From Pseudobutyrivibrio sp. YE44 (GTDB taxonomy: Bacteria > Bacillota > Clostridia > Lachnospirales > Lachnospiraceae): a DNA stretch of 64,000 bases. Shown here piece after piece: positions 39,518 to 41,222 of the stretch. Under the pieces are notes generated by a model. The model saw only the letters and a program-made list of their open reading frames with translations, did no database searches and was not told the origin of the DNA. The position numbers and the translations under genes are program-made. Numbering within the stretch: position 1 is the stretch's first letter; every line of letters begins with the position of its first letter. Where the stretch lies: the NCBI RefSeq assembly GCF_900104335.1, contig NZ_FMXT01000002.1:310001-374000 (forward strand), in the 5' to 3' direction.

Positions 39518-40377
39518 TATTCTTCTAAGTCCTCCTGGGTGTTTAATAAAGCTTCCAAATCACTGTAATCTCTGTTAGAATTCTTTCTCTTTGCAATCTC
39601 AACAGTTTTCCTTGAAAGAACTTGATAAATGTCTCTATCAATTCCATCAAAGGTATTTAAATGCTTTTGCACTGTTCCAACATCATTTCGCTCTATTGGA
39701 CCAGTCAATGCATTTTCCGTACCCACAGCTAAAACCTTATTCACATTGCCTAGCAATAAAGGCGCTATTGCATCACTTAATTGCTCCTCTGAGAATCCGC
39801 ATATACGAAGTTCATCCTCCGCTGCCTGAATAAGAGCAACTACAAGATTTGAACAAAGTACTGCTGCACCGTGGTAACGTGTTTTCACATCAGCATTAAT
39901 CACTGTGTACTTCAAACCACTGGCTTCAAGTAAAGCCTTGATATCACTAATGTGACCTTTTTCTCCTTCGATTGTAAAAAGCGATTTTGGAAGTTCCTGG
40001 TATGATTTGTATCTATCTGATACAGCCAGTAATGGATGGACCGAGAAACCGAACGCGCCAGTTTCATCAATACCTTTAAAGATTTCTGAAGATAAAGAAC
40101 CGCTGCAATGACATATCATTTTTCCAGCTATAGACATATGCTTAAGCTGCTCCCACACCACTGAAATTGCATCATCGGGAACAGTAATAAACACTGCATC
40201 ACATTCTTTAATTAATGTCTCTAAATTTGAAAAATGTTTTGATTTGGTAAAATCCGCTGCCTCAGCGGCGGACGAAGATGTGCGACTATAAAAGCCTACA
40301 AGATTGTGCTGGGTAGTGGCAAAAAGCATTCCAAGGGAACAGCCTACTTTACCAGCGCCTACAAATCCAACCTTCAT
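39517..40377 (-). CDS. panG: Rossmann/DUF2520 ketopantoate reductase, PanG-like
   Basis: A 286-residue NAD(P)-dependent dehydrogenase from ATG 40377 (GGGAGG eight bases upstream; the GTG at 40386 is too close to that site). N-terminal Rossmann domain: [17 protein letters not shown] (glycine-rich loop), then [10 protein letters not shown] and [10 protein letters not shown]. The DUF2520 C-terminal helical domain starts near residue 120 and includes [18 protein letters not shown]. Not PanE-like. It matches the PanG type of ketopantoate reductase described in Francisella and predicted in other Firmicutes. Placed first in the pan operon with no panE seen here, it fills the missing step. Confidence 0.8.
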
Positions 40378-40554
40378 GGACACCACCTCCCTTTAATTAG
40401 CAAGGTGACACAGTCTCGTTCAAAAATGATACAAGCACTCCAACGGGTCTACAATTTTAAACTTAGAAATCATAAGGGTATAGTTTCTTTCGAATACCAT
40501 CCGAGGGACACTATACCATTTGTGAGGCACTATGTAAAGACCTCCCAACTACAT

Positions 40555-41182
40555 AAGTCTTTTTACTATTCACAGTCTATATGAACTCTAAACCTGAAGT
40601 AACCTCCTACTATGTAGGTATAGGTTCAATCACAAAATAATGATTCTCTAAATGCCGCATGTAGCTTTTCTTATTGTGGGCGTTCTTTCAATTCTTTGCA
40701 CTTTGGAGCTACTGTATGTATTGCTCAGACACACTCTATTTTCGGTAATGCTCCCCCTCAGGGTATATAACTATCAGTTGCTGGAATTTGAAATGCGCTT
40801 AGTAAAATAAAAAGCAGGTTTTGCATGTATAGGCAGCAGCCGCTAGGACGGCGGCTGCAGTGGTCACTTGAGACACGATGTTGAATGTGCCACGGTGACT
40901 ATACATTCAAAACCTGCTTTTTTAATTTTACTTAGCAAATGGAGTATGGAAGCAACTGATAGTTATATACCCTGAGGGGGAAGCATTATTTATACTTACA
41001 AGTGTCTGAGCTATACATACAGTAGCTCCAAAGTGCAAAACCAATGAAAGGACACCCACTAAAAGCTACATTTGCAGCATTAAGAGAATCTATTATTTTT
41101 GCTCAAATTCACCTATACCTACATAGTAGGAGGTTCCTTCAGCTGTTATATTATAAGAAGACTGTGAATAGTAAAAATGACT
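40555..41182. repeat. Large imperfect inverted repeat, about 630 bp, gene-free
   Basis: Arms 40555-40822 and 40909-41182 are reverse complements with matching blocks separated by variable stretches. Paired blocks: 40555-40578/41159-41182; 40601-40625/41111-41135; 40642-40670/41061-41090; 40695-40732/41002-41039; 40749-40782/40951-40985; 40800-40822/40909-40932. The centre (40823-40908) adds its own stem (GTTTTGCATGTATAG / CTATACATTCAAAAC) and a GCAGCCGC/GCGGCTGC hairpin. The 839-bp gap 40387-41225 has no coding frame that fits; 40477-40517 holds a smaller hairpin GGTATAGT/ACTATACC. Could be a large structured RNA or a foldback mobile element. Confidence 0.85.
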
Positions 41183-41222
41183 TCCTGTGGGCTGCTTTAC
41201 GGTAAGCCCACAAGAAGTTATT
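41181..41222. terminator. Bidirectional terminator beside the DUF1934 gene
   Basis: Stem CTTCCTGTGGGCT (41181-41193) / AAGCCCACAAGAAG (41204-41217). Plus side runs into TTATTTTTTT, minus side into TCATTTTTAC. It can end the DUF1934 transcript and any transcript running rightward through the inverted repeat. Confidence 0.85.

Follow-up and report, generated by a model that had tools for sequence, protein, structure and literature searches.

A palindromic MITE-like element of Pseudobutyrivibrio with a TwoAYGGAY RNA motif at its apex

Introduction

TwoAYGGAY (RF01731) is an RNA family whose function has been unproven since 2010. It is predicted, in PMC4333381, to bind CsrA through paired GGA hairpins. 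Rfam types it as cis-regulatory, and the table of the 2010 discovery paper enters 'n' under cis-reg. In inverted repeats, homogenisation of the arms and inversion of what lies between them are described as results of template switching (PMC8604942, PMC8794818). Among the literature matches listed, going by their titles and abstract openings, none describes the element reported here. The CsrA-binding prediction is prior art; what is new here is the mobile, palindromic setting of the RNA.

The palindrome and its apex

The window, a stretch of 64,000 nucleotides from Pseudobutyrivibrio sp. YE44, contains a near-complete palindrome of 614 bp (table 1), one of some 30 copies dispersed in that genome. 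An earlier note on this DNA had described an imperfect inverted repeat with no coding gene, able to fold into a rod, and each of these statements was borne out. Self-BLAST gives an imperfect palindrome at 40555-41183 (L001 1501-2129) whose arms are 75.8% identical, far beyond chance at an E value of 5e-108; the matching blocks measure 19 nt (100%), 32 nt (97%), 38 nt (97%), 62 nt (81%) and 27 nt (93%). The predicted RNA fold of the whole has an energy of -342 kcal/mol and a z score of -24.6, equalled by none of 20 shuffles. No open reading frame of at least 60 aa lies inside the palindrome; a mechanical 92-aa GTG frame (40306-40584) only overlaps its left end. A pan motif (RF01749) at 40408-40503 on the minus strand, scoring 40.5 bits against a cut-off of 36.2 beside pantothenate genes, is ordinary; it is a neighbour of the palindrome and lies outside it.

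Table 1. Parts of the copy in the window (positions are those of the window; TIR, terminal inverted repeat).
Feature	Position	Strand	Basis or remark
Whole element, MITE-like, 614 bp	40562..41175	+	Ends placed by TIR match; palindrome
Left TIR, TTTACTATTCACAG, 1 mismatch to the consensus GTTACYATTCACAG	40562..40575	+	Consensus from 12 sibling copies
Right TIR, same sequence as left	41162..41175	-	TIR match
Left arm	40576..40786	+	Inwards from 40643 common to most own-genome copies; outside this it changes faster
Right arm, complement of left arm	40948..41161	+	Up to ~41089 common to most own-genome copies
Apex, TwoAYGGAY RNA motif (RF01731)	40787..40947	+	54.3 bits, curated cut-off 43; covariation in relatives
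Apex hairpin 1, loop UAGGACG, a degenerate AYGGAY	40836..40858	+	Read from sequence and model alignment
Apex hairpin 2, includes ACACGAUG; AYGGAY lost	40860..40893	+	Read from sequence and model alignment
Left flanking 8-mer, TAAGTCTT	40554..40561	.	Possible decayed target duplication with right flank
Right flanking 8-mer, AATGACTT	41176..41183	.	Flank comparison

The earlier note could name no RNA class that the arms resemble. The centre matches TwoAYGGAY above the curated cut-off. In 35 sequences chosen from 10 genomes, 15 of the 16 predicted pairs show changes on both sides, and the GGA loops are mostly conserved. The apex carries a true, covarying TwoAYGGAY signature, and with it the element carries a candidate CsrA-binding RNA. 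Neither hairpin of the window copy retains an exact AYGGAY loop. At least one exact loop is found in 4 of 19 copies of the same genome, in 46 of 48 copies of the sister species (G021) and in 26 of 32 cores from other genera; at least two are found in 0 of 19, 7 of 48 and 6 of 32, respectively. Since exact loops are so rare in the YE44 genome, its copies would be mostly worn out if CsrA binding matters, and the window copy, both exact loops lost, is probably a relic as a candidate binder. Because two exact AYGGAY loops are seldom found together, the idea of a paired site rests on near-matches. A pattern scan for csrA found no match in 983 kb, which covers parts of genomes and is uninformative.

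Distribution

How widely is the sequence dispersed? With the 628-bp stretch as query, 70 matching pieces were found in its own 3.24-Mb genome, which merge into about 30 places (L012 and L013 abut contig ends, as do L006 and L008, and each pair could represent a single copy). The feature is thus not a single-copy RNA locus. At E <= 0.001 all 24 other members of the genus have a match and none of 16 genomes outside it does; the weakest two genus matches, those of G020 and G004, lie at 3.5e-4 and 6.6e-4.

The RNA motif reaches further. Among 246 genomes from the order, RF01731 matches occur in 19 (above the cut-off in 15); the 14 control genomes have none. Ten of 20 motif loci outside the genus have no palindrome, seven have one of 224-274 bp, little beyond the motif itself, and three have one of 392-431 bp. 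We conclude that the long palindromic form is largely confined to this genus. In the other genera, where the ends were inspected visually and no further, terminal repeats are not established. In the sister species, on the other hand, 48 of 49 RF01731 matches fall within a palindrome, 532-725 bp long in 43 of the 48 and 223-337 bp long in the other five. The position of TwoAYGGAY, a known candidate regulatory RNA, at the tip of a mobile element with about 30 copies suggests that it is carried here by mobile DNA.

Ends and sites of insertion

A 14-bp inverted repeat, (G)TTACYATTCACAG, terminates the palindrome. In the window copy TTACTATTCACAG stands at both ends (40563-40575, plus strand; 41162-41174, minus strand), exact over 13 bp, and a search of the 64 kb for TTACYATTCACAG with at most one mismatch found only these two matches, both at the palindrome ends, against 0.15 expected. 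Twelve related copies of the sister species, aligned with their flanks, end sharply at GTTACCATTCACAG (GTTACC/GGTAAC). Of the 48 copies examined in that species, both TIRs are preserved in 19, with no more than 3 mismatches in 14 and spans of 607-654; in the remaining 29 one end or both cannot be recognised. Recognisable TIRs are absent from most copies in the YE44 genome.

Does insertion duplicate the target? The flanking 8-mers of the 19 TIR-bearing copies of the sister species agree at 8 of 8 positions in four cases and at 7 of 8 in one, whereas shuffled flanks give expectations of 0.19 and 0.17. Elsewhere, eight TIR-bearing copies, the window copy included, have no perfect duplication; their flanks agree at 1, 1, 1, 3, 4, 5, 5 and 6 of 8 positions, so that the evidence for duplication rests on the sister species. 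In the window copy the agreement is 5 of 8, not significant against the null, and its flanks are a possible decayed duplication.

Where the interiors of two copies are almost the same, their outer arms agree in large part too, and the sequence outside the element does not. Thus L255 and L261 are identical at 0.99 of positions in the core, 0.94 in the inner arms, 0.92 in the outer arms and 0.59 beyond the element.

Occupied and empty sites complete the picture. At the window locus G017 has a gap of about 246 bp without a palindrome between the syntenic genes; among 20 genomes with the left-hand gene, that of YE44 included, these two alone have both the following gene and the GntR gene within the 1.5 kb covered. 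At the gltD locus a long palindrome is present in 9 of 27 fetched loci, one of them running off its contig, and the other 18 have no palindrome above 120 bp (two of these, L071 and L088, end at contig ends). Among the 28 loci read that correspond to L015, the long form is confined to that of the window genome, and the longest palindrome elsewhere measures 232 bp (L172). Dispersed copies, no transposase gene, TIRs and empty sites, together with target duplications in the sister species only, are strong evidence that the feature is a MITE-like, non-autonomous palindromic transposon.

Search for a partner transposase

If the element does not move itself, what moves it? A scan for the end motif returned 85 matches, against 26 for the reversed pattern. 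In 20 stretches holding 32 of the 85, from eight genomes of which the sister species is not one, no transposase gene with the same ends was found. The earlier note had set its reading against the chance that the arms are the ends of a transposase-bearing element. As regards mobility that chance has largely come true, in view of the siblings with TIRs and target duplications; the transposase-bearing relative is the part that was not found.

One candidate was an IS4-family insertion sequence (NF033592) of G003, of which the element would be a MITE with common ends (L287 501-2196; L274 494-2203). GTTACTATTCACAG, with 0-1 mismatch, adjoins the ends of this insertion sequence on both sides in L274, on the left in L287, and also in L294, L295 and L299, and subgroups of IS4 are described as making duplications of 7-13 bp (PMC2266710). 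The insertion sequence's own ends, however, are CAATGTCATTWAGTTAAG, common to IS1675 (L303) and the relatives L296 and L301, and situated inward of the motif. On this view the motif would be the site of insertion, with 9 bp duplicated: ATTCACAGT in L287 and ACTGTGAAT in L295. L274, where the motif is inverted on both sides without a direct duplication, fits this target reading poorly and to that extent favours common ends. Given IS1675 and its relatives, which make a target site the probable role of the motif, we rejected the insertion sequence as autonomous partner; the relationship is largely refuted and very unlikely. No IS4 transposase was found in viral contigs.

In L287, L274 and L295 the insertion sequence appears to insert into GTTACTATTCACAGT and so to use the ends of these elements as its targets. 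A second small element of 187-194 bp also has GTTACTATTCACAG ends, with 0-1 mismatches (L275, L276, L277, L278, L281, L282, L283 and L284). It consists of two hairpins flanking a conserved linker that resembles ACTGGAATCAGTG, some copies have weak, sub-threshold matches to Clostridiales-1 (RF01699), and in the seven copies compared the flanks agree at only 2-5 of 8 positions. IS1182-like pieces near the end motif in L288 were rejected as partner, the motif there belonging to a deleted 192-bp element. In L294 the 8-mer CAGGGTTT precedes both GTTAC-end motifs (1736-1757 and 2775-2797), about 1 kb apart.

An intergenic, palindromic repeat of high copy number also recalls the REP/BIME repeats moved by a Y1 (RAYT) transposase. 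Yet Y1_Tnp matches occur in only 10 of 29 genus genomes; the sister species, with its 49 motif copies, has none, and in the YE44 genome all matches are partial, several of them lying where a contig stops, so that an intact gene may still exist there. The unit, moreover, is 610 bp long, with 14-bp TIRs and 8-bp duplications. We consider such an origin so improbable that we set it aside.

Evolution of the arms

The two arms of a copy resemble each other more than they resemble the arms of other copies. Over 110 nt outside the shared part, 20 copies of the YE44 genome give a match of 0.82 between own arms, 0.48 across copies and 0.33 after shuffling. For whole outer arms the own-arm match is 0.84; a few cross-copy pairs are higher than usual, up to 0.85, chiefly among L001-L004. 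The inner, shared part matches across copies at 0.863. The arm profile of the sister species is similar.

Are the arms complementary because a transcript must fold? The rod RNA would then be the selected product and its dispersal incidental. The very strong fold and the covarying apex favour this explanation, and mismatches within the arms bear on it further. In 42 palindromes, not all of them independent, the numbers of G.U and A.C mismatches are 59 and 99 in the outer arms, 101 and 129 in the inner arms, and 174 and 75 in the core; the 48 copies of the sister species give 92 and 89, 109 and 92, and 131 and 86. The excess of G.U in both cores is what a rod RNA would lead one to expect, though isolated mismatches there, counted in the sister species, number 1 and 1; in the same species isolated inner mismatches lean to G.U, 31 to 14. 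In the outer arms, on the other hand, G.U is about equal to A.C or A.C is favoured, which is not what selection on RNA gives. These arms are also copy-specific, which, like the sharp ends and target duplications of the sister species, counts against a rod RNA as the selected product; we regard that explanation as unlikely. The structured RNA proposed in the earlier note is upheld for the apex; conservation of the arms as RNA is not supported.

Orthologous copies indicate how the arms may change instead. Of three orthologous loci, two show concerted change: the columns at which both arms differ number 29 between L064 and L068, where 9.8 are expected, and 11 between L028 and L030, where 2.0 are expected. 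It is scarce in other pairs (L028/L029, 1 column; L029/L030, 1; L024/L047, 0; L064/L065, 2, mostly gaps). Swapped arms account for 28 columns in L028/L029 and 24 in L029/L030, and L024/L047 is a mixture of 47 and 9. At two sites close to the gene ends, L028 has one reading in both arms, L030 has the other in both, and L029 has one arm of each kind. Since the outer arms are copy-specific, have no consistent G.U signature, change in concert and flip, the pattern, judged from sequence comparison, is better explained by template switching from arm to arm at the DNA level than by selection for an RNA rod. We hold with moderate confidence that the palindromes are maintained through DNA-level copying between arms.

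At the two ends of many copies in the YE44 genome stand terminator-like hairpins, each the inverted counterpart of the other. Several copies fill the whole space between the stop codons of two convergent genes and have such hairpins in pairs. In L007, L009, L015, L017 and L053 the hairpins of the outer arms, inverted on both sides, have like stems and different loops. Compared with L029, the left gene of L030 (~1261) apparently takes part of its stop codon from the copied arm, leaving the protein one residue shorter. A simple MITE leaves the terminator-like inverted ends unaccounted for. Stop-to-stop copies would result, to judge from the few orthologues, if arm copying were kept in check by selection on the ends of genes.

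Alternatively, the outer arms might be host flanks, insertion having made an inverted duplication of the adjoining terminator and 3' region. The stop-to-stop palindromes (in L005, for example, equal sequence follows both stops and the coding tails differ), the stop codon of L030 and the paired terminator-like hairpins all speak for this. Near-identical siblings at different loci, however, have common outer arms (L255/L261), which disfavours inverted duplication of the target site as their general origin; the palindromes of the sister species keep to the length range given above in 43 of 48 cases regardless of gene context; and the direct 8-bp duplications fall outside the palindrome. Host flanks are in our judgement a decidedly unlikely source.

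Might the absence of SbcCD explain why such palindromes are tolerated? SbcC/SbcD-like pairs (NCBIfam) occur in 4 of 29 genus genomes, G003, G012 (in pieces), G015 and G019; SbcD is above its cut-off in three genomes and SbcC in none, a cut-off that only 1 of 14 controls reaches. Weak Mre11/SbcD-like matches occur in the remaining genus genomes. As genomes with SbcC/SbcD match the element too, and weak matches occur elsewhere, no conclusion can be drawn.

Discussion

We think it likely that the window contains an old copy of a MITE-like, non-autonomous transposon of about 610 bp, palindromic from end to end, whose arms are kept self-complementary by arm copying. Its odds are somewhat reduced by two observations, the lack of perfect target duplications outside the sister species and the scarcity of concerted change in several orthologous pairs. 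A transposase would act on its ends in trans, and insertion would often take place next to the end of a gene. During DNA replication the long arms would then template each other, by template switching or arm conversion; each copy would thereby stay self-complementary even as its outer arms grow apart from those of the others, and the middle would sometimes be flipped. If the element is transcribed, the two apex hairpins might be displayed on a rod of about 300 bp, and a working copy might bind CsrA through its GGA loops.

A bolder proposal is possible, if doubtful: that the transposable palindrome spreads candidate CsrA decoys or 3'-end regulators in Lachnospiraceae-type genomes, the RNA tip occurring within unrelated arms and ends in other genera, so that the RNA and not its shell would be selected, and arm-to-arm copying keeping the palindromes intact. 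Its odds are lowered because half of the 20 loci outside the genus have no palindrome and only three exceed 280 bp.

In one genus TwoAYGGAY sits on the tip of a multi-copy transposon, and its copy number there mirrors mobility as well as selection. Natural copies that have kept or lost their loops make the prediction of a CsrA sponge testable. The copies also amount to dozens of parallel natural experiments on the survival and homogenisation of long palindromes in bacterial chromosomes.

How does the element compare with known systems? Like REP/BIME repeats it is an extragenic palindrome, but REPs are given as 20-40 bp (PMC3733652), and the element has no RAYT link in the sister species. With the CsrB/RsmZ-type sponges of CsrA it shares paired hairpins with GGA loops, for which CsrA binding is predicted (PMC4333381); unlike them it has at most two candidate sites and a multi-copy, mobile setting. 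Its arm homogenisation and spacer inversion resemble quasipalindrome template-switch mutation (PMC8604942, PMC8794818, PMC7202029). The first of these studies is concerned with short inverted repeats in yeast and the second with RNA-gene stems, whereas the arms here are about 300 bp long and dispersed through a bacterial genus. The apex has the two hairpins and basal stem of the TwoAYGGAY model and scores above its cut-off, but both loops of the window copy are degenerate and the RNA is here the tip of a transposable palindrome. Finally, the element is non-coding and dispersed, with TIRs and, in the sister species, target duplications, as are bacterial MITEs. It differs from them in being palindromic over its whole length, in carrying a conserved RNA domain, and in having arms that are self-complementary yet diverge between copies.
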